64,000 nucleotides of DNA. Origin: Phoenix dactylifera (Eukaryota > Streptophyta > Magnoliopsida > Arecales > Arecaceae). The translations under genes and the position numbers were made by a program. The stretch lies in the NCBI RefSeq assembly GCF_009389715.1, contig NC_052400.1:2108001-2172000 (forward strand). Direction: 5' to 3'. This document shows positions 304 through 12,834 of this stretch, in pieces. The first letter of the stretch is position 1. Each line of letters begins with the position of its first letter. The notes beneath the pieces were generated by a model. It did not search any database, was not told the DNA's origin, and saw only the letters and a list, made by a program, of their open reading frames with translations.

Positions 304-367
304 TGTTACGGGGGAACTCAGCCACCATGCCCCACGTGACCGACACGCGCGCCCAAGAAGACTACAG

Positions 368-817
368 CTGCCCCTTGATCCAGTAACCCGACCCCGAGTC
401 GGATATCTTCGGCTTCGCAGCCCGACCCCGAGTCGGCTGCCCCTTGATCCAGCAATCCGACCCCAAGTCGGATATCTTCGGCTTCGCAGCCCGACCCCGA
501 GTCGGCTGCCCCTTGATCCAGTAACCCGACCCCGAGTCGGATATCTTCGGCTTCGCAGCCCGACCCCGAGTCGGCTGCCCCTTGATCCAGCAATCCGACC
601 CCGAGTCGGATATCTTCGGCTTCGCAGCCCGACCCCGAGTCGGCTGCCCCTTGATCCAGTAACCCGACCCCGAGTCGGATATCTTCGGCTTCGCAGCCCG
701 ACCCCGAGTCGGCTGCCCCTTGATCCAGCAATCCGACCCCGAGTCAGATATCTTCGGCTTCGCAGCCCGACCCCGAGTCGGCTGCCCCTTGATCCAGCAA
801 TCCGATCCCGAGTCGGC
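368..817 (+). repeat. 69-bp tandem repeat array inside the LTR
   Basis: Units begin CTGCCCCTTGATCC at 368, 437, 506, 575, 644, 713 and 782: six full copies and one partial copy. Each unit contains two copies of CCGACCCCGAGTCGG, whose ends (CCGAC and GTCGG) can pair as a short hairpin. Because 69 is a multiple of three and the unit lacks stops in several frames, the array produces long meaningless ORFs with a 23-residue repeat on both strands. Confidence 0.95.
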
Positions 818-1054
818 AATCTCTCGACAACGACAGGCTGTTCCCCTGAAGCACGCCACGACCCTCTGTCCCTGCAACGGTCGTATCCGGCGCTGCTCCA
901 CGATCTCCTGTAACAGCCGTACAAGGCGGAGCTCCACTACGCCCTGTCACGGCCGTACCCAGCGCTGCCCCACGACGCCCTGTAACGGCCATGTCAGTGG
1001 CAACTCCATCGTGCCACACGATGACCAACCCCCCCGAAGGACCCCCCAGCCTGG

Positions 1055-1061
1055 TATATAT
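1055..1061 (+). promoter_or_regulatory. TATA box of the 5' LTR
   Basis: The sequence TATATAT lies within ctggtatatatgctg, about 260 bp before the end of the LTR. The same motif is at 12571-12577 in the 3' LTR. It is the likely pol II promoter of the retrotransposon, with transcription expected some 30 bp downstream. Confidence 0.7.
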
Positions 1062-1319
1062 GCTGCGGGGGGAGAAGGGGGGAGGTAAGCAAGAACTTCC
1101 AGAGCATTCTCCTACTACCTGCAATTATCTCTCCTTCTCCTCCAATCTCCTCTGACTTGATCGTCGGAGGGCCCCCACTACCCCAGTGGTGGTGCGAGGC
1201 TTGCTTGCAGGTTTCTCGGTGGAAGGTGGAGCACAATCAACACCAACCAAGGCAACTCAGACGGAATCCCGTTCACACCGCTATGCCAATCGTTCTCGGT
1301 TTGGACCACCAGCAACAGT

Positions 1320-1336
1320 TGGCGCTAGAAGGAGGG
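1320..1336 (+). other. Primer binding site
   Basis: Two bases after the 5' LTR the sequence reads tggcgctagaaggaggg. TGG, complementary to the CCA end of a tRNA, is the usual start of a plant LTR primer binding site. I could not assign the tRNA from memory. Confidence 0.75.
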
Positions 1337-1357
1337 CCGAATCTTAGAGCGATCGTA

Positions 1358-2803
1358 ATGGCACGGCGAGGTGGTCGTGGAGCTTCCAATGCCTCCGGTC
1401 ACGGGGCCTCTCGCGCCTCCGGCCGGGAGGCCGCTGCGTCTCCAACACATTCTCAGCAACACTCCACCGTTCCACCCCCCATTCAGATGGTCGAAGCCGC
1501 TCAGTTCGACCAGTTAGCCCAGCAGGTTCGCACCCTCGCGGAGGCGGTGCAGAACCTGCAGGGTGTGATGTCTCGGGCGCCGCAGCGGGCCCAGGAGCCG
1601 CTGCTCCCTGAGCGCTCACCTGTCCTCCTTAACCCGCGCTCCTTCCTCTCCCATGGGGAGGAGCGCCGGCGCGAGGAAGATTCTCGAGCACGGTCCATTC
1701 TGCCGGGACCGTCCCATCGGAGCTGCGCGGGGTACGAGAGGCGGGCCCGGGCGCGTTCCCAGACCCCCCAGTCCTCAAGGAACCCGCGCTCCAGTCGGTC
1801 CCCCTCTCGGTGCTCCTTGTCTCCCACCCATCGGTCGCGCTCCCTGGACCGGCGGGTGGACGATCTCCACCGACAACTCCAGGTCCTGAAGGGCCACTCT
1901 AAAGATCCCTTCGCCGACTTGGAGATCTCCTCCCAACCGGCGCTTGCCTCGAGGATCCTGCGGACCCCGAATCCGCCGGGGTTTAAAATGCCGGCGATCG
2001 AGCCCTATGACGGGGCGGCGGACCCGCGGGATCACGTCGAGAGTTTCAGGACCCTTATGCTCTTCCACGGAGCATCAGGTCCTCTCCTCTGCAAGGCTTT
2101 CCCGGCGACCCTCCGTGGCCCGGCAAGGGCGTGGTTCGCCAGCTTGGAGGCTAACTCGATCCAGACCTTCGATCAGTTTACCCGCCTCTTCATCACCCAT
2201 TTCGCCGTCAGTAGCCGGCGGCGACTGGTCTCCGACTCCCTCTTTGATGTCCGGCAAAACGAGGGAGAAAGCTTGCGGGATTATCTTACCCGCTTCAACA
2301 AGGCTACGTTGGAAGTCCGGAACCTGAGCCAGGAGGTGGCTCTTTCAGCCCTGAAGCGTGGCTTCCGAAAGGGCAGACTCACCTTCTCCCTGGACAAACG
2401 CCTGCCGCGGAGCTTTCCGGAGCTGTTGTCCCGGGCGAACCAGTATGCGGACGCCGAGGAGGCGGCCGCCCACCGGAGCAAGGAGGCCGCCGAGATCCCT
2501 CTAAAGCTCGGGAAGAAAAGGCGAAAAGAGGCACGCCAGGGGAGGAGCCCGACGCCTCAGCGTCGGCGCAGAAGCCTGTCGCCGGCGAGGAACCACGGCG
2601 CCCTACGCCCTCGTTCTCCGCCCCGACGTTTCAACCGGTACACTCCTCTCCTGACTCCCCGGGCCCAGATCCTCATGGAAATCAAGGGGCGGGAGGACCT
2701 CCCGGTCCCGAGACAGATGAAGAAGATCCCTGGGAGGAGGCCCTCTCGGGCGTACTGTGAGTACCACCGGGACCACGGCCACGACACCGAAGACTGCTTC
2801 TAG
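1358..2803 (+). CDS. gag: Retrotransposon Gag polyprotein (481 aa)
   Basis: Gag forms the virus-like particle that packages the element's RNA. I chose the ATG at 1358 because the longer open frame upstream (from 1157) lies inside the LTR and is not expected to be translated. The N-terminal 200 residues are basic, Ser/Arg- and Pro-rich and low in complexity. Residues about 207-347 match the plant retrotransposon Gag domain (Retrotrans_gag: PRDHVESFRT, ARAWFASL, ESLRDYLTRFN). The C-terminus has a His/Cys cluster (YCEYHRDHGHDTEDC) typical of this lineage. The frame ends at TAG 2801-2803, but the sense frame continues directly into the pol linker and protease. The stop therefore sits where most relatives have a CAG-type codon. 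Confidence 0.9.
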   Translation: MARRGGRGASNASGHGASRASGREAAASPTHSQQHSTVPPPIQMVEAAQFDQLAQQVRTLAEAVQNLQGVMSRAPQRAQEPLLPERSPVLLNPRSFLSHGEERRREEDSRARSILPGPSHRSCAGYERRARARSQTPQSSRNPRSSRSPSRCSLSPTHRSRSLDRRVDDLHRQLQVLKGHSKDPFADLEISSQPALASRILRTPNPPGFKMPAIEPYDGAADPRDHVESFRTLMLFHGASGPLLCKAFPATLRGPARAWFASLEANSIQTFDQFTRLFITHFAVSSRRRLVSDSLFDVRQNEGESLRDYLTRFNKATLEVRNLSQEVALSALKRGFRKGRLTFSLDKRLPRSFPELLSRANQYADAEEAAAHRSKEAAEIPLKLGKKRRKEARQGRSPTPQRRRRSLSPARNHGALRPRSPPRRFNRYTPLLTPRAQILMEIKGREDLPVPRQMKKIPGRRPSRAYCEYHRDHGHDTEDCF

Positions 2804-5800
2804 CTTCGGGACGAGATCGAGGCTCTCATCCGCCGAGGGCGTCTTGGTCGATATGTGAACGACCGACGTCCCCCCGCAGACTCGCGTCCGGCCGACCCGG
2901 CCCCTCCGGAGCCTCGGGAGCAGAATCGACCCGTCGCGGGCGTGATCCATACTATCACTGGGGGCTGCCCCCGGCCCGAGAGGAACGCGGGGGGCTCGAC
3001 TGAAGCATCAAGGGCAGCCGTCGCAAAGAGGCAGAGGGTCGGTAATGTAATCACTTTTTGTGATGAAGATGTAAAGGGGGTTCAGACCCCCCACGACGAC
3101 GCCATGGTGATCTCCCTCACTATGGCAAACTATGATGTAAGGCGTGTTCTTGTGGATAGTGGAAGCTCAGCTGATATTTTGTTTTACGAGGCCTTCCAAA
3201 AGATGAGCTTGTCCAGACAATTGTTGCACAAAACATCCACCCCCCTCATAGGATTCACTGGAGACGCTGTCTCGGCCGAAGGTGTCGTTGAGCTGCCTGT
3301 GACTGCGGGCGTTGCACCCGCAGAAGCCACGGTGCGGCTCGGGTTCTTGGTCGTCCGTGTTCCCTCGGCCTACAACGCTATCCTCGGACGATCCGGACTG
3401 AACGCCCTTCGCGCGGTGGTCTCAACGTACCACTTGCTCATGCGGTTCCCCACGGCGGCCGGGATTGGAGAGGTCCGAGGTGACCAACCGACCGCAAGGC
3501 AATGTTTCCTAGCAACTCTCAAAGGGAAGAAGCCCGTAGAAGCCTTAAGCGTCGAGTCCCTCGACGCCAGAGACGAGGTGGCCTTGCGGCACGGGGAGCC
3601 GGCCGAAGGTGTGATCGAAGTTCCCCTCGAGGAAGGTCGCCCGGACCGGACGGTCCGGGTCGGCACCAATCTCGACCCGGGAGCTCGGGCTCGGTTGGTG
3701 GAATTCCTCCGAGCCAACGCCGATGTATTTGCCTGGTCGGCGGCCGATGTACCTGGATCGACCCGGAGGTCATTTCTCACGCCCTCAACGTCGACCCAAC
3801 CCACCGACCAGTAAAGCAGAAGAAGAGACACTGTGCCCCGGATCGGATCCGAGTGGTCGACCAGGAGGTAGACAAGCTCTTAGAGGCAGGATTCATAAGG
3901 GAGGTCAGCTACCCCGAATGGCCGGCAAATGTCGTACTTGTCCGGAAGGCGAGCGGAAAGTGGAGGATGTGCGTCGACTACACCGACCTGAACAAGGCAT
4001 GCCCCAAGGATAGCTTTCCGCTTCCGCGGATAGACCAACTGGTCGACGCGACTTCCGGATATCAGCTGCTGTCTTTCATGGACGCCTTCTCCGGCTACAA
4101 CCAGATAATGATGGCTCCACAGGACGAGGAGAAAACTGCCTTTATAACAGACCGGGGGCTGTACTGTTACAAGGTAATGCCCTTCGGTCTGAAGAATGCT
4201 GGCGCCACTTACCAGCGCCTCGTCAACAAAATCTTCAAAGAGCAAATCGGCCGGAACATGGAGGTGTACGTGGACGATATGCTGGTGAAGAGCCGCCATG
4301 CAGACCAGCACATCGCGGATCTGGAGGAGACTTTTGCCACCCTGCGGAAGTTTCGCATGAAGCTGAACCCAGCGAAGTGCGCCTTTGGCGCTTCGGCCGG
4401 GAGGTTCCTCGGTTTCATTGTCAACCAGCGGGGGATCGAAGCCAACCCTGACAAAATCAAGGCCATCCAAGATATGTCCCCTCCGACCAAAGTGAAGAAG
4501 GTTCAGGAGCTCGCTGGGAGGGTCGCCGCGCTCGGACGATTTGTGGCAAAGTCGGCCGAGCGCTGCCAACCTTTCTTTAAGGTGTTGAAACGCCCGAAAG
4601 ACTTCCTCTGGATGGCCGAATGTCAAGCAGCATTCGACCAGCTCAAGGAATACTTGGCGTCTCCTCCCCTGCTGTCCAAGCCGCAAGAAGGGGAGATGCT
4701 CTACCTTTATCTGGCGGTCTCCCCAACCGCAGTCAGTGCGGTACTGGTTCGGGAAGAGGCAAAGTTCCAGAAGCCTGTGTACTACATCAGCCGGGGTCTT
4801 ACGGGATGCCGAGACGCGGTATACGAAGGCTGAAAAGATCGCCTTCGCGCTGCTGACCGCGACCAGGAGGCTTCGCCCCTATTTCCAGGCCATTCTGTCA
4901 CCCTCTTGACCGATCAAACCGCTGCGGCAGATCCTCAGCAATCCTGAGAATGCAGGACGGCTGGTGAAGTGGGCAGTAGAACTTGGTGAGTTCGACATCC
5001 GCTACCAGCCCCGACCCGCTATCAAGGCCCAGGCGCTCGCGGATTTCCTCGCTGAGTGCACGGTGCAGGAGGCGGAACCTAGGTCGCCGGAAACACCTAG
5101 CCTCGACCTCCCGATTTGGACGCTTCACATCGATGGGTCGTCGAACCCCGAAGGTGGAGGGGCCGGGCTGGTCCTCACCAGCCCTGATGGAGTGATAGCC
5201 GAGTATGCCTTGAGGTTCGGATTTCCAGTGACCAACAACGAGGCGGAGTATGAGGCCCTAGTCACGGGACTCAAACTCACCAAGGAGCTCGGCATCCGGC
5301 GCCTGAAGGTCTTCACCGACTCCCAGTTGGTGGTCGGGCAGGTCCGTGGGGAGTTCGAAGCCCGGAACCCGACCATGCAGAATTACGTCCGGAAGGTGCA
5401 AGCACTCATTCCCGACCTCTGCAGTGTCGACATCCAGCAGGTCCCAAGAAGTGAAAATGCCAGGGCCGACAGGCTGTCCCGCTTAGTGAGCGCAGACGCG
5501 CACAACTTGTCGAGGGCGATCTACCTGGAGACCCTGGATGCCCCGAGCATCGGCGAGGCTGGAGCGGTGATGGCGATTGACCTGGAGCCGTCTTGGATGG
5601 ACCCGCTTGTCGCCTACCTCGCCGAAGGGATCCTCCCTGAAGACGAAGATCAAGCTCGGCGACTTGTTATGAAGTCCGCCCACTACGTACTCAACGAAGG
5701 GAGGCTGTATCGGACCTCGTTCACCGCCCCCCTCTTAAAGTGCCTCCGCCCCTCGAAAGCGGCCTACGTCCTCGGCGAAGTCCACGAAGGCGTTTGCGGA

Positions 5801-6826
5801 TCCCACTTGGGGGCTAGGTCCTTGGCGCACAAGATCATGAGGCAAGGCTATTATTGGCCTACCTTGTTGGAGGACTCAAAGGATCATGTACGGAAATGCG
5901 ACGCCTGCCAGCGCCACGCCAACGTCCAGAGAGTCCCTTCTGTCCCCTTGGCACCAATCACTGCACCCTGGCCCTTCGCCCAGTGGGGAATGGATATCCT
6001 CGGACCATTCCCCGTCGCTTCAGCTCAGCGAAAATTTTTGATTGTTGCAATCGACTACTTCACCAAGTGGGTGGAGGCAGAGCCGCTGGCCACTATCACG
6101 GAGGTGCAAGTCCGGAAGTTCGTGAAGAAGAACATCATTGTCCGATTCGGGGTACCTCGGGTCCTCATCTCGGATAATGGCCGACAGTTCGACAACAAGC
6201 ATTTCCGTGACTTCTGCGAGGAGTTCGGGATCGAGCATCGGTTCACATCTGTGTCGCATCCCCAAACCAACGGCGAGGCCGAGGTCACAAATCGGACAAT
6301 CCTCCAAGGAATCAAAGCGCGAATCGGTCGGACGGGGCAAGCTTGGGTCGAAGAACTCGAGAATGTCCTTTGGGCGTATCGGACCACGCATCGGACCCCT
6401 ACCGGGGAGACGCCTTTCAGCCTAACCTATGGCACGGAAGCCGTTGTCCCCGTGGAGCTCGGACTCCCCTCACCTCGGGTGGCCGCGCACCGACCCGAGG
6501 CCAATTCGGAACAACTCCGAGGGAACCTGGATCTCTTGGAAGAAGCGAGGGAAATGGCGCAGGTTCGGATGGCGATGTATCAGCGGAGGGTGGCCCGATA
6601 TTACAACTCCAAGGTTCGACCGAAGCTTTTCAGAATCGGAGATCTGGTGCTAAGGCGAGCTAAAGCATCTCAACCTGCGGAAGGTGGGAAGCTAGCGCCA
6701 AATTGGGAAGGCACGTATAAGGTTCGCTGGGTAAACCGACCTGGCTCCTACCAGTTGGAGGCCCTAGATGGTCGAGAAATTCTAAGGAGCTGGAATTCCG
6801 CTAACCTGCGAATGTATTACCAGTAG
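2804..6826 (+). pseudogene. pol: Retrotransposon Pol: protease, RT, RNase H, integrase; four frameshifts
   Basis: Pol carries protease (LVDSGSS near 3150), reverse transcriptase (VDDMLVKS near 4267), the RT-linked RNase H remnant (PVYYISR near 4770), an archaeal-type RNase H (HIDGSSNPEGGG near 5130, then NNEAEYEAL and TDSQLVV) and integrase. Integrase has an HHCC zinc part near 5790-5910 and all three catalytic acidic residues (GMDILGPFP, SDNGRQFD, NGEAEVTNRT). The frame is broken four times: a base missing at 3755-3756, an extra G at about 4793-4797, a base missing at about 4889-4891 and an extra A at about 4916-4918. Each break lies in a run of two to four identical bases. From 4964 to 6826 the frame is intact and ends at a natural C-terminus (ANLRMYYQ). 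I give no restored protein. Confidence 0.92.
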
Positions 6827-7988
6827 AACGACGATGCCAGAAAGACAGTTCAAAAATGTATAACACTTTGTATTTCAATAATTTCTGGTTACAACGGCGT
6901 GCTCGTGTGATAACAAGGAATTCCCAGAGGGGAATTAGGGTGTAAAGAAAGTAAAGAAGAGGTGGAGACTCCGAGGAGCTGAAGATCTGGGATCCCGAGA
7001 CCTCCATCCGAAGCGGTTGCAATCCCGTCGGAAGTGGGTGCTTCCAACCGGAGGCGCCATCGGCGTCTCACGAAAGAGACGAAGAGCCGGCGCGGATGAA
7101 GAAGAAGTGGACGAAGGAGAAGTCCACACTGCCTCCAACCGGAGGCGCCATCCACGCCCCACGAAGAGGACGAGGAGCCGCCGCAGACGAAGCTCCCGCT
7201 GCCTCCAGGGGAACGCCACCTCCAAGGGATATTCCGGTCCTCCCCAGTGTTAGGGGAGAGAAGGAATACAAGGGGGAAGAGCATATGGAGGCGCGGTCCC
7301 GGATCAAGCACCTGGTGCGGAGCTCAATCGGGAGGCCGAACTTCAAGGAGGGGAGACGTGATCCCGGATGAAACGCCTAGAGCGGAGTTCCGCCGGAGAG
7401 AACCTCCTTGTTGATCCCAGATGAAACGGCTAGTTGGCGGAAGTCGCGAAGGGCGCGCCTCCCGTTCCTTCGGCAGGGGTCTCTCAACCATGCGCCGGAG
7501 AGGAGGCCCACGATCCATGGCAACCTGAACAGCTCCGGCTTGGCAGGCTCCATCGCACCTGCACCTATATTTATAGCCAAACTGCGGCCCCCCGGTCGTT
7601 CCGATACGGGTGGCTCCAATAAATGCGGGCGCATTGAATCCGGAGCCGATCCGGCTCTCAAGGCGTATCTTCCCGCGATTTCCTAAGCGTCATTCTCCTT
7701 AATCGCATTTTTTGTGCAGGACACTCCGGGTGGCCTGTACCCCTAGGTCCACGTATCTCCGCTCGCGCCCCAAGCCGCATCCGCCTCGAAGAACGCGCGT
7801 ATCGCGGCCGCTTAACTGACACTCCTCGCAAGCAGCAACTGGCGATCCGATTTCCCAGGTAACCCCTTAATTAGCACTTAATGCCCATCTGGTGTTCCCC
7901 AGGCGACGCTTGGAGAGGAGGAGAAATACAATCGCAGCTGGCCATGGAGAAATCCCGTCGGGCGGCGAGCGACAGGCGCACGACCAGC
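6827..7988. other. Non-coding spacer between pol and the repeats of the retrotransposon
   Basis: No coding region is supported here. Two diverged copies of a block with the shared core ccaaccggaggcgccatc lie near 7046 and 7137. Three degenerate copies of a block starting tcccggat lie near 7299, 7362 and 7414. A TATA-like site on the minus strand is listed separately. Open frames on the minus strand (7068-7346, 7377-7661) show no domain I recognise. Confidence 0.6.
7568..7575 (-). promoter_or_regulatory. Minus-strand TATA-like box inside the retrotransposon
   Basis: Read on the minus strand the site is ctataaatatag, a good TATA match in otherwise GC-rich DNA. It points back toward pol. It is nearly palindromic, so the orientation is uncertain, and no recognised coding sequence follows. 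Confidence 0.3.
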
Positions 7989-8352
7989 GAGCGGAATTTT
8001 CCGAGGCTCGGCCCTTGGATGCCAGGCTAACCCGATGATCATCCCGGGAGCAGACTAGCCTGAAGCCCCGACCGGTCGCCTCGGCTTGCGCCAGCCTTGG
8101 CCGACCAACGAGCGGAATTTTCCGAGGCTCGGCCCTTGGATGCCAGGCTAACCCGATGATCATCCCGGGAGCAGGACTAGCCTGAAGCCCCGACCGGTCG
8201 CCTCGGCTTGCGCCAGCCTTGGCCGACCAACGAGCGGAATTTCCCGAGGCTCGGCCCTTGGATGCCAGGCTAACCCGATGATCATCCCGGGAGCAGACTA
8301 GCCTGAAGCCCCGACCGGTCGCCTCGGCTTGCGCCAGCCTTGGCCGACCAAC
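7989..8352 (+). repeat. Three tandem copies of a 121-bp unit
   Basis: Units begin GAGCGGAATTT at 7989, 8110 and 8232 (the middle copy has one extra G) and are almost identical. Each includes gaccggtcgcctcggcttg and ggccgaccaacgagcgg. They lie downstream of the antisense gene's stop codon and upstream of pol in antisense sense. Confidence 0.95.
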
Positions 8353-8358
8353 GAGCGG

Positions 8359-8738
8359 AATTTCCTGAGGCCTAACCCTCGGATGCCTGGCTTAGCGCCG
8401 GAAGAATTTCCTGAGGCCTAACCCTCGGATGCCTGGCTTAGCGCCGGAAGAATTTCCTGAGGCCTAACCCTCGGATGCCTGGCTTAGCGCCGGAAGAATT
8501 TCCTGAGGCCTAACCCTCGGATGCCTGGCTTAGCGCCGGAAGAATTTCCTGAGGCCTAACCCTCGGATGCCTGGCTTAGCGCCGGAAGAATTTTCTGAGG
8601 CCTAACCCTCGGATGCCTGGCTTAGCGCCGGAAGAATTTCCTGAGGCCTAACCCTCGGACGCCTGGCTTAGCGCCGGAGGAATTTCCTGAGGCCTAACCC
8701 TCGGATGCCTGGCTTAGCGCCGGAGGAATTTCCTGAGT
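8359..8738 (+). repeat. Eight tandem copies of a 46-bp unit plus a partial copy
   Basis: Unit starts (AATTTCCTGAGGCC) fall every 46 bp at 8359, 8405, 8451, 8497, 8543, 8589, 8635 and 8681, with a partial copy at 8727. The unit resembles the first third of the adjacent 121-bp repeat (GAGGCTCGGCCCTTGGATGC against GAGGCCTAACCCTCGGATGC), so it probably arose from it. Confidence 0.95.
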
Positions 8739-8894
8739 CGGGAGTCAGCGAGACGCTACCAAGAGTTAAAAAGTAGAAGGACGAAAGTGAAATGAAGAAA
8801 CTCTATTTGCATTAACTTTCATTGTTTTCAGGGCTGAGACCCATACAACTTGGCAAAACGCCAACACACAAAGAAAAGAACAAAATACAGAAGG

Positions 8895-11262
8895 TCAGCT
8901 TGGAGGAACCCCCGGGTCGAGAACGTCGGGCACGTCCGTAGGGGGTAGGGAGACGGTTGGAGAAGCAGCAGGCAATGGCGCCGGAGGGGAGTCGAGAAGG
9001 GAGATCCCACTCAGGTCAATTTCGGGGTACTTAGCCGACACCCTTGCCAGGCCTTCCTCGAAGCCTAAGACAAAGGAGTCGGACCCCGCGTCCGACATAT
9101 CACGGACGAACTCGTCGGACTGACGATAGGCCTGTACCGCCTCCGACATATCACGGGTGAACTCGGCGGACTGACGATAAGCCTGTACCGCCTGACGCCC
9201 GATCTCCGCACTCTTCTCGGCCAGCGTCGCCTCTGCTCGCTCCATAACCTGAGCTTTTGCCTCCAAGACCTTCGCCACAATCCGGTCATCCGCCTCGGAG
9301 GAGATCCTCAGCAGATCAGCCTGGGCCTCCTTGTGCTTCGCCTCGGCAGCGATGCGAGCAGCCTCAGCCTCCTCCAGGCGCGAATGAAGCTCCTGGTCGC
9401 TCGCGCGGGACTTCTCCAAAGCCGACTCCAATTCGCCCAGCTTGGCTTCAAGAGACCGGGTCCGGTTGCGGGCGTTGTCGGCTGACCGCTGGGCCTTCTC
9501 CCACCTCTCCCGGTAGTCGGCAGCCTTCCGGGACTGCTTCTCGGCCCGCTCCTCCGCCTTCTTGATCTCGCCCTCGAGACCTGAGGCAACCTTGAGTTGC
9601 TCCCGAGCCTCCAACAGTTGCTTCTCGAGGGTGGCGAAGCCGAGTGCCCGCTCTTCGGCTACCTGGAGCCTCATCTCGAGGTCCCTGGTCGTCCTCCCCG
9701 CCGCAGCCTGACCTCCCTCTTCTGTTGCCTTCAGTTGGCTCTCGGCCCTCGCCAGAAGCCTCGCCTGTTCCTCGTAGCACTCCTCCAGGCGGATCATGTA
9801 CTGGGCGAGCTAAGAGATAGGAAAAACGAGGGCGTCAGGCGGGGATCAACAGAGCCTATAAATGATGAAAGCGACCGAAAGAACACTCACCGACATGAGA
9901 CAGACGCAGCTGGCAGCCCCAACGTCAGGGACCCTCATCTCCCGGACCTGCCTGCGGTCCTTCTCCAGCAGTACCGTCTCGATGAGGTTTCGGGCGCCGG
10001 CGAAAGTGAAGGCCGACCCCGACTTCTCCCCGGAGTCGGACGGTGGTTCCGCAGCCTTACCCTTACCCATCGCTTGGGGAAGAGTCATGCTGACCACGCT
10101 CGGGGCGGGGGCCGCCCCTGGAATTGACAGGGTCCAGCTCGGCCGGGGCCTCGGCGCGTCCCTCCTCGTATCATCCGGAGCCGACCGAGTCGAAGGCTGG
10201 GCTGGGGACCGATCACGTCCGACCCGTCCATCTTGGGCGCGCCCGGGTGATGCCTCCGGAGAAACGGTAGTCTCGGCATCGGAGGGCTGATACAACGTCA
10301 ACTCCCGGTCCGCGCCCGCGGCGTCCCCCTGATCGGTGGGTCCGGACCCGTCTGTCGGCGTCGGAGTCGCCTGCCGGCGGGACTTCTTCGCCGGTGGAGC
10401 CCCGCTCGGAGGAGCTCGTTTCTTCCTCCGGACTGCTTCCAGTAGGGACGTCCTACCAACAGCCGTTGCCTTGTCCGACCGCATGACGTCGTCGATCTCT
10501 GCAAAAAGGACGAGGTGGTCGGAGGTTGAGAAACTGAAGGAAAGAACGAAACGAAAGAGGAGAAAAGAGCTAAAAAAGAAATGGTGGCGGGCTCACGGTC
10601 AGTGGGGACCGAGCTCAGACCGACGTTCACCAAGGTATCCTCGGAAATAAGGCGACACACCGGGGGAGCCGACCCTCGGCAACCAACTCCTTCAAGACAG
10701 CGACGCCGTCGGATTCCTCCCTCGACAACCTCGATAGGCCAATCGGGGACTTCATCGGCGTCTCCCAGGTTGCCCTGATTCCCCAAGAGGGATCTGCGTC
10801 AACGAAAAAGAAGCGCTCCTTCCAGCCGTGAATGGAGGTGGGAGCCTCCTTGACGAGGCCGCACTCTCGCCGCGCCGCAAAGCACCACCACCCTTTATCC
10901 TGGGGGTGGCCACTCAGGCCGTAGCATTCCCAAAAGACATTCAGGGTAGCGGGAACCTCGTGCATGCGGCAGAGAACCTGAAAGGCTGTCAGGGCGCGCC
11001 ATGAGTTCGGCACCAGCTGCGTCGGCGCCACTCTTAAACCCCGAAGCACCGGAACGACTAAGTCCGAGGGGGGAAAGCGGAACCCGGCCTGAAGAATGCC
11101 CTCATTGATGGCAACCTTCCATGGAGGAGGATGGGACATCCTCTCCTCAGGCCCCGGGAGTGTAACATTGCAGGCCTCGGGAAGGTGGTATCGAGCCACG
11201 AACCTATCTAGGTCTTCGGCGGCCAACTCCGACTTAATGCGGTCTGCTCTCACTTCGCCCAT
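8895..11262 (-). CDS. Spliced antisense gene of the retrotransposon (three exons)
   Basis: Exons on the minus strand are 11262-10597, 10498-9891 and 9809-8895. The introns, 10499-10596 and 9810-9890, both have GT-AG ends (GTGAGCCC...TTTGCAG and GTGAGTGT...CTCTTAG). The phases fit: exon 1 ends in phase 1 and exon 2 in phase 0. Exon 1 resembles the plant 'putative gypsy type transposon' domain (PF04195-like: PPSDLVVPVLRGL, LVPNSWRALTAFQVLC, GWKERFFFVDAD). Exon 2 is Pro/Ser-rich with a basic nuclear-localisation-like segment (RRKKRAPP...AKKSRRQ). Exon 3 is a long coiled coil, then an acidic Pro-rich tail. One base is missing near 10650, which shifts the frame before the exon 1 donor; without that the product would be about 729 aa. 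Its function is unknown. Extra antisense ORFs are known in Tat elements. Confidence 0.75.
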
Positions 11263-11522
11263 CCCTAATGGCCAGTGAATCTACGGTCAGGACAGGGTCG
11301 AAAAGGGGGAAAAGACCGGAACGACTGGAGTACACTAATACAAAAGGAGAGTATGGAGAGTCCTAAATTAAAGAATGGAGCAACTCACCGGAAGAGAAGG
11401 AAGAACAGCTCCGAGAGCGTCAAAGGAGGAGCAAGCGAACAGTCCGACGGCGATGACGGCAGCGCAAAGGAGAAACTCGAAGATGTCTGTAAAGAGAAAG
11501 GCGGACGGAGGAGGACCCCCGG

Positions 11523-11529
11523 TTAAATA
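11523..11529 (-). promoter_or_regulatory. Candidate TATA box of the antisense gene
   Basis: On the minus strand the site reads cctatttaacc, about 260 bases upstream of the ATG at 11262, followed by a pyrimidine-rich leader. It is the best TATA-like match before the antisense coding region, but no transcript data support it. Confidence 0.45.
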
Positions 11530-11779
11530 GGCGGAAAGGTGGGTGACGCCCCGGTGACGCCAGAGGACGCCTGGCTGCCGAAGGGTCGCTCGCGCCCCAA
11601 AGGCGAATCGACGCCATTAAGGAAGGATGTCCGCCGAAATCCTCAGACTGCCAGGTCAGCAACAACCGCCATATGCCATAAAGAAGACGGGGAGCTCGAA
11701 GCGCGCGCGCCTCTCCGAGGGATGGCGGCAATCTCGAAGCATCACTTCCTTCACCCGTTCCCCTTCTGGTTCCAGGCTC

Positions 11780-11795
11780 GGAAGTGGGGGGCTAC
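11780..11795 (+). other. Polypurine tract
   Basis: The purine-rich run ggaagtggggggctac lies immediately before the 3' LTR. It is the expected primer for plus-strand DNA synthesis. Confidence 0.8.
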
Positions 11796-12834
11796 TGTTA
11801 CGGGGGAACTCAGCCACCATGCCCCACGTGACCGACACGCGCGCCCAAGAAGACTACAGCTGCCCCTTGATCCAGTAACCCGACCCCGAGTCGGATATCT
11901 TCGGCTTCGCAGCCCGATCCCGAGTCGGCTGCCCCTTGATCCAGCAATCCGACCCCGAGTCGGATATCTTCGGCTTCGCAGCCCGACCCCGAGTCGGCTG
12001 CCCCTTGATCCAGTAACCCGACCCCGAGTCGGATATCTTCGGCTTCGCAGCCCGACCCCGAGTCGGCTGCCCCTTGATCCAGCAATCCGACCCCGAGTCG
12101 GATATCTTCGGCTTCGCAGCCCGACCCCGAGTCGGCTGCCCCTTGATCCAGTAATCCGACCCCGAGTCGGATATCTTCGGCTTCGCAGCCCGACCCCGAG
12201 TCGGCTGCGCAGCCCGACCCCGAGTCGGCTGCCCCTTGATCCAGCAATCCGACCCCGAGTCGGATATCTTCGGCTTCGCAGCCCGACCCCGAGTCGGCTG
12301 CCCCTTGATCCAGCAATCCGATCCCGAGTCGGCAATCTCTCGACAACGACAGGCTGTTCCCCTGAAGCACGCCACGACCCTCTGTCCCTGCAACGGTCGT
12401 ATCCGGCGCTGCTCCACGATCTCCTGTAACAGCCGTACAAGGCGGAGCTCCACTACGCCCTGTCACGGCCGTACCCAGCGCTGCCCCACGACGCCCTGTA
12501 ACGGCCATGTCAGTGGCAACTCCATCGTGCCACACGATGACCAACCCCCCCGAAGGACCCCCCAGCCTGGTATATATGCTGCGGGGGGGAGAAGGGGGGA
12601 GGTAAGCAAGAACTTCCAGAGCATTCTCCTACTACCTGCAATTATCTCTCCTTCTCCTCCAATCTCCTCTGACTTGATCGTCGGAGGGCCCCCACTACCC
12701 CAGTGGTGGTGCGAGGCTTGCTTGCAGGTTTTCCGGTGGAAGGTGGAGCACAATCAACACCAACCAAGGCAACTTAGACGGAATCCCGTTCACACCGCTG
12801 TGCCAATCGTTCTCGGTTTGGACCACCAGCAACA
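11796..12834 (+). repeat. 3' LTR (1039 bp)
   Basis: Matches the 5' LTR with 8 substitutions, a 24-bp block gained in the tandem array (near 12200) and one extra G near 12583-12589. The array runs from 11860 to about 12333. It is followed by the target duplication gtatg at 12835-12839. Confidence 0.95.

Follow-up and report, generated by a model that had tools for sequence, protein, structure and literature searches.

A putative two-intron gene antisense to gag-pol in a Tat/Retand-type LTR retrotransposon of Phoenix dactylifera

We propose that a Tat/Retand-type LTR retrotransposon of Phoenix dactylifera carries an accessory gene antisense to gag-pol, whose two introns are retained in new insertions via copying of the sense RNA only. 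As a whole, we hold this to be the best explanation of the locus, with a probability of about 0.8. The structure of the gene and the persistence of its introns, both read from sequence comparisons, appear highly probable. A regulatory function of the encoded protein, for which HBZ of HTLV-1 serves as the nearest working model, is a tentative analogy that we would sooner doubt than adopt. What is new in this proposal is that the TRP28 domain and the SMC-like coiled coil would be exons of one gene, and that the antisense orientation would shield the introns.

The element was found in a window of 64,000 nucleotides (the whole stretch of DNA analysed), where it is delimited by the alignment of its LTRs and by the target duplication GTATG on both sides (Table 1). 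The two LTRs differ by 8 mismatches over 1014 aligned bases, with 25 gap columns. Both contain 69-bp tandem repeats (367-822 and 11859-12332), and the difference in LTR length falls in such repetitive sequence. Read on the sense strand, gag-pol is followed by the tandem arrays, the antisense gene and the 3' LTR; the gag-pol of this copy is split over several frames. The region between pol and the 3' LTR (6827-11795; 4,969 bp), the internal region (1318-11795; 10,478 bp) and the lengths of both LTRs lie inside the ranges given for Retand elements in the consulted sections of PMC11963269 (2,933-6,566, 7,380-12,869 and 315-1,194 bp, respectively). The element also has the antisense TRP28 (PF04195) ORF and the arrays in the pol-3' LTR region, the latter being present in about half of the Retand elements described in those sections. 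Judged by its domains, sizes, antisense TRP28 ORF and arrays, it appears to be a Tat/Retand-type Ty3 LTR retrotransposon. In the left flank (74-303), an open frame resembles a LINE RNase H remnant, as judged by eye from the translation.

Table 1. Features of the retrotransposon and of its putative antisense gene (positions in the window).
Feature	Position	Strand	Remarks
LTR retrotransposon	304-12834	+	12.5 kb
5' LTR	304-1317		1014 bp
gag-pol region	1025-6826	+	Retrotrans_gag, RVT_1, RNase H and integrase domain matches
Two tandem arrays	7981-8737		periods 121 and 46; between pol and antisense gene
Exon 3	8895-9809	-	SMC-like coiled coil, conserved C-terminal motif; terminates at stop
Intron 2	9810-9890	-	81 bp, GT-AG, phase 0; in-frame stops if retained
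Exon 2	9891-10498	-	contains basic segment
Intron 1	10499-10596	-	98 bp, GT-AG, phase 1
Exon 1	10597-11262	-	TRP28 (PF04195) domain; frame broken in window copy
TATA-like box TATTTAA	11523-11529	-	267 bases ahead of ATG; intact in 28/30 near copies
3' LTR	11796-12834		1039 bp

A first-pass annotation of this DNA had described three open exons, joined in exactly matching phases by two minus-strand introns. Both introns stand at the places, borders and lengths given there, but in the window copy exon 1 is not open up to its donor. From the ATG at 11262, its frame meets a TGA at 10629-10627 and a second stop ahead of 10597, while the donor of intron 1 lies downstream at 10596. Since the TGA precedes the donor, the window copy is frame-broken in exon 1, and the match of phases holds for other copies of the family only. 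The exon 1 tail, VCRLISEDTLVNVGLSSVPTD, is coding in another frame, within the ORF at 10298-10798, and that frame fits the phase of exon 2; distant relatives have sequences such as LTEEALVNVGLSSARPE at this place. The product had been predicted to combine a PF04195-like domain, a basic segment and a long coiled coil, and all three could be traced: exon 1 matches PF04195 with an E-value of 3e-11 (43.8 bits, cut-off 26.2), exon 2 contains the basic segment RRKKRAPPSGAPPAKKSRR, and exon 3 is coiled-coil-like, though its SMC match is weak (E 1.5e-4; 19.7 bits, far below the cut-off of 567). The T fraction is 0.43 and 0.41 in the introns, and 0.23, 0.14 and 0.16 in the exons. A codon-usage model built from gag-pol prefers the assigned frame in 8/10 segments of exon 1, 5/9 of exon 2 and 14/15 of exon 3, so that exon 3 is clearly supported and exon 2 gives a mixed picture. 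With T-rich introns and with borders that recur in relatives, the antisense gene is by its sequence more than a chance arrangement.

Close relatives of the gene were sought in the 773-Mb assembly (2391 contigs) with the gene itself as query. Among the 40 matches listed (40 of 1675 candidates scored), which include the window and are 96-100% identical, the window and 29 other loci were aligned, leaving out the remaining 10. In all 30 copies, introns 1 and 2 have GT-AG borders and lengths of 98 and 81 bp, in a ranking that is biased toward intron-bearing copies because the query itself contained the introns. Exon 2 measures 608 bp throughout; exon 1 measures 667 bp in 27 copies, 666 in two and 626 in one, and exon 3 measures 915 bp in 27 and 914 in three. 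In 19 copies, the joined exons form a single open frame of 729 residues; the other 11 lack one. Conservation of borders and frames in related copies had been named as a check on the annotation; the gene passes it in this family, and the distant relatives described below agree.

Genome-wide counts of exon junctions and exon/intron borders are free of this bias. A 33-base probe across the border between exon 2 and intron 2, allowing at most 3 mismatches, matched the genome 1205 times (622 on one strand, 583 on the other), and its reversed control matched nowhere. An equally long probe for the intronless junction of exons 2 and 3, searched with equal tolerance, had no match in the genome, nor had one for the intronless junction of exons 1 and 2 (34 bases). 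The suggestion that the introns survive transposition through their antisense placement has thereby withstood a test at the sequence level. In the sense orientation, the introns read CT...AC and would offer no splice sites, so that every new copy would keep them. Such persistence is what the known replication cycle of LTR elements would lead one to expect, and the counts are in line with it.

More diverged elements were retrieved by a PF04195 profile search of the genome, in which 150 of 3465 candidates were scored and 20 of the 24 top-ranked were fetched. In the best tblastn segments, their exon 1 proteins share 32-39% identity with that of the window; a same-strand blastn comparison with the window gene detected no similarity in the DNA. 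Motifs served to place the borders. Intron 1 was scorable in 15 of the 20 (GT in 14/15, AG in 14/15, lengths 101-118; in L103 it was taken from a second copy within its stretch), and intron 2 in 13 (GT in 12/13, AG in 13/13, lengths 73-76). Both phases, 1 and 0, agree with those of the window family. Unscored rows are varied: L108 has TG in place of AG ahead of exon 3, L091 lacks both the GT at the expected position and any motif of exon 2 or 3, and in L109 the donor of intron 1 and the acceptor of intron 2 are visible. When the 10 loci that have both introns are compared in pairs, identity averages 0.88 for the exon 1 part, 0.81 for intron 1, 0.81 for exon 2, 0.79 for intron 2 and 0.84 for the exon 3 part, and conservation of exon 2 within this group does not exceed that of the introns. 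Gap runs that are not multiples of three make up 20/28 in exon 2 and 19/19 in exon 3 of these loci. A stricter search recovered all four motifs in 9/20 relatives, and just one of these nine passed every frame and border test, so the distant relatives are, by their sequences, mostly decayed copies that still display the layout. In the one relative whose flanking DNA was examined (L090 with L140), RT and RNase H-integrase are opposite in strand to the TRP28 gene. Here, identity to the window is 77% for RT, 61% for RNase H-integrase and 38% for the accessory protein, RT being far better conserved than the latter.

Whether the splice borders of the two groups are homologous was assessed by ungapped comparison of the window residues beside each border with those of the relatives, using offsets and 500 shuffles. 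At donor 1, zero offset is best (score 28.9 against -10.4 for shuffles, sd 7.2; 18 relatives) and none of the 500 shuffles is as good, which places intron 1 at the same donor codon in the window family and the distant relatives on this comparison. At the end of exon 2, zero offset exceeds 480/500 shuffles, and another offset scores higher still. For the first residues of exons 2 and 3, the highest scores come at offsets of 7 and 4 residues, and zero offset cannot be told apart from the shuffles. Exact homology of all four borders was therefore dropped: it held for donor 1 only, the other three being weak or shifted by 4-7 residues. For intron 2, the sequences of the two groups agree in layout and phase only. 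In the exon 3 alignment, the first residues of the relatives fall 48 residues into the window exon, a shift that we read as an effect of low similarity and that still weighs against exact homology of intron 2.

The candidate TATA box of the first-pass annotation was recovered as a TATA-like motif (Table 1). An ATG was recognised in 16 of the 20 distant relatives; TATATA stands at -248 to -282 in 14 of these, at -182 in one, and is absent in one. Most diverged elements thus seem to have a TATA box at about the spacing of the window copy, some 250-280 bp upstream of the start codon. The leader stretch 11265-11388 on the minus strand is intron-like, with GTGAGT from 11388, AG at 11266-11265 and a T fraction of 0.39, and these borders are kept in 29/30 near copies. 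A third intron in the 5' leader was nevertheless rejected: among the 16 distant relatives with an ATG, a donor-like site falls within the leader only in L106 (-189), and those of L096, L103, L104 and L108 lie at -415 to -420, upstream of the TATA box. A scan for bacterial-type promoters and terminators is irrelevant to the antisense gene.

At the protein level, an alignment of the TRP28 domain from the window and 14 relatives with a stop-free piece contains 33 invariant residues, and the C-terminal motif of exon 3 recurs in the distant relatives. Part of this motif is duplicated in tandem at 9086-9193 (51 bp, 2.1 copies, in frame). A comparison of the exon 1 profile with solved structures gave no convincing relative (one match, E 0.15), and searches of viral contigs and of bacterial and archaeal genomes with the exon 1 protein retrieved nothing related. 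Queries from pol matched viral contigs at 24-36% identity, chiefly over RNase H (best 80 of 270). One contig filed under an Erythrobacter MAG (L081) encodes a Ty3-type RT 36% identical to that of the window and is perhaps eukaryotic contamination. Neither this contig nor the viral matches entered the comparisons above.

The variants among the 30 near copies bear a sign of selection. Those found once only comprise 149 nonsynonymous or stop changes against 87 synonymous ones, and those common to at least two copies comprise 26 against 41 (Fisher odds ratio 2.7, p 4.5e-4), in counts made without a tree, so that shared variants are not all independent events. Recounting per codon, with 5 multiple differences excluded, gave 144:87 and 25:39. 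Private variants would mostly reflect decay after insertion, and shared ones would more often have been passed on via active elements, where amino-acid changes are rarer. This depletion among shared variants suggests that the protein is under selection. Private coding substitutions are mainly G>A and C>T (171/236), as expected for methylated, silenced copies.

The antisense ORFs are known in outline, whereas an earlier account of their division by introns does not seem to exist. In the consulted sections of PMC11963269, 97% of Retand clusters carry TRP28 in an antisense position, within ORFs. As in our element, the PF04195 ORF lies there between pol and the 3' LTR, with tandem arrays in the same region, and additional antisense ORFs with SMC-like similarity are reported. 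In contrast to the gene proposed here, in which two introns join the parts, ORFs of at least 600 bp are tabulated singly there; the same sections do not mention "intron", and their sole two matches to "splic" sit in a single reference entry. The maize Grande gene23, as reviewed in PMC7264820, likewise lies antisense between pol and the 3' LTR, with a promoter of its own and a nuclear product. The consulted text of this review lacks the word "intron" and calls for the study of antisense and spliced transcripts. The literature searched held no report of introns in Retand antisense genes, and an earlier description in the Grande gene23 paper is possible. Introns as such are known from the plant LTR retrotransposons Ogre and EVADE, where, according to the consulted part of PMC12786077, they serve to make subgenomic RNAs of the element; here, they are on the opposite strand. 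The rice locus MIKKI, a spliced domesticated retrotransposon in the excerpt of PMC5599236 at hand, was set aside as no precedent for the antisense layout.

Could the antisense frames be separate ORFs, with the GT-AG pairs between them unused? GC-rich antisense strands are often open by chance, and the separate listing in PMC11963269 follows this reading. We nevertheless find it improbable: no conserved start of their own was found for exons 2 and 3, the phases fit in the 19 open near copies, the intron-like composition is bounded exactly by GT and AG, and diverged elements have the same intron phases. A different objection accepts the introns and denies that orientation protects them. Introns often increase expression in plants, and intronless copies might arise and fail to spread if the introns are needed for expression of a protein that bears a sign of selection in its private and shared variants. 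Selection after insertion would leave some intronless copies, and the genome has not even dead ones beside its 1205 borders; this account, too, has little in its favour.

If one element family had taken up a host gene together with its introns, this would explain the presence of spliceosomal introns, which are typical of host genes. The layout is common to elements whose exon 1 proteins have diverged to 32-39% identity, so that a capture, if any, was not recent, and the consulted sections of PMC11963269 report no TRP28 similarity outside transposable elements. We therefore regard a recent capture as very improbable; an ancient one may have occurred.

We thus favour an antisense accessory gene whose introns are hidden by orientation. 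Transcription would probably start from a TATA promoter of its own, between the gene and the 3' LTR. Removal of two spliceosomal introns from the antisense mRNA would then join the TRP28 domain, the basic segment and the long coiled coil into one protein of ~729 residues. The genomic sense RNA, which is the one reverse-transcribed, would carry the introns unspliced, and the antisense mRNA would not be copied into new insertions. The protein itself may be a nuclear regulator of the element that binds DNA and oligomerises, in the manner of HBZ in HTLV-1. HBZ has a basic region and a coiled coil (leucine zipper), for which the basic segment of exon 2 and the weak SMC-type match of exon 3 would be the counterparts. 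According to the consulted part of PMC10186651, HBZ is likewise encoded by an antisense gene of a retroelement, through a spliced RNA and with a nuclear product, where splicing and nuclear location are predictions in our case. It differs in belonging to a human retrovirus and in using an antisense promoter in the 3' LTR, whereas the promoter-like box is internal here and two introns interrupt the coding sequence. The comparison is one of layout and description and implies no sequence relation.

Taken together, if this reading is correct, the extra antisense ORFs of an abundant group of plant elements would be one gene and not several ORFs, and the full protein, TRP28 with its coiled coil, would thereby become the testable unit. 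The elements would also provide a natural case, in hundreds of copies, of introns that are not lost by retrotransposition, so that the rule of intron loss in retroelements could be tested by strand. We see an even prospect that this extends across flowering plants, and that the Retand antisense ORFs of both kinds, TRP28 and SMC-like, are exons of a single ancient spliced gene. In that case, its introns would have been carried through very many rounds of reverse transcription, and the antisense strand would be the place where a retroelement can keep an intron-bearing gene.
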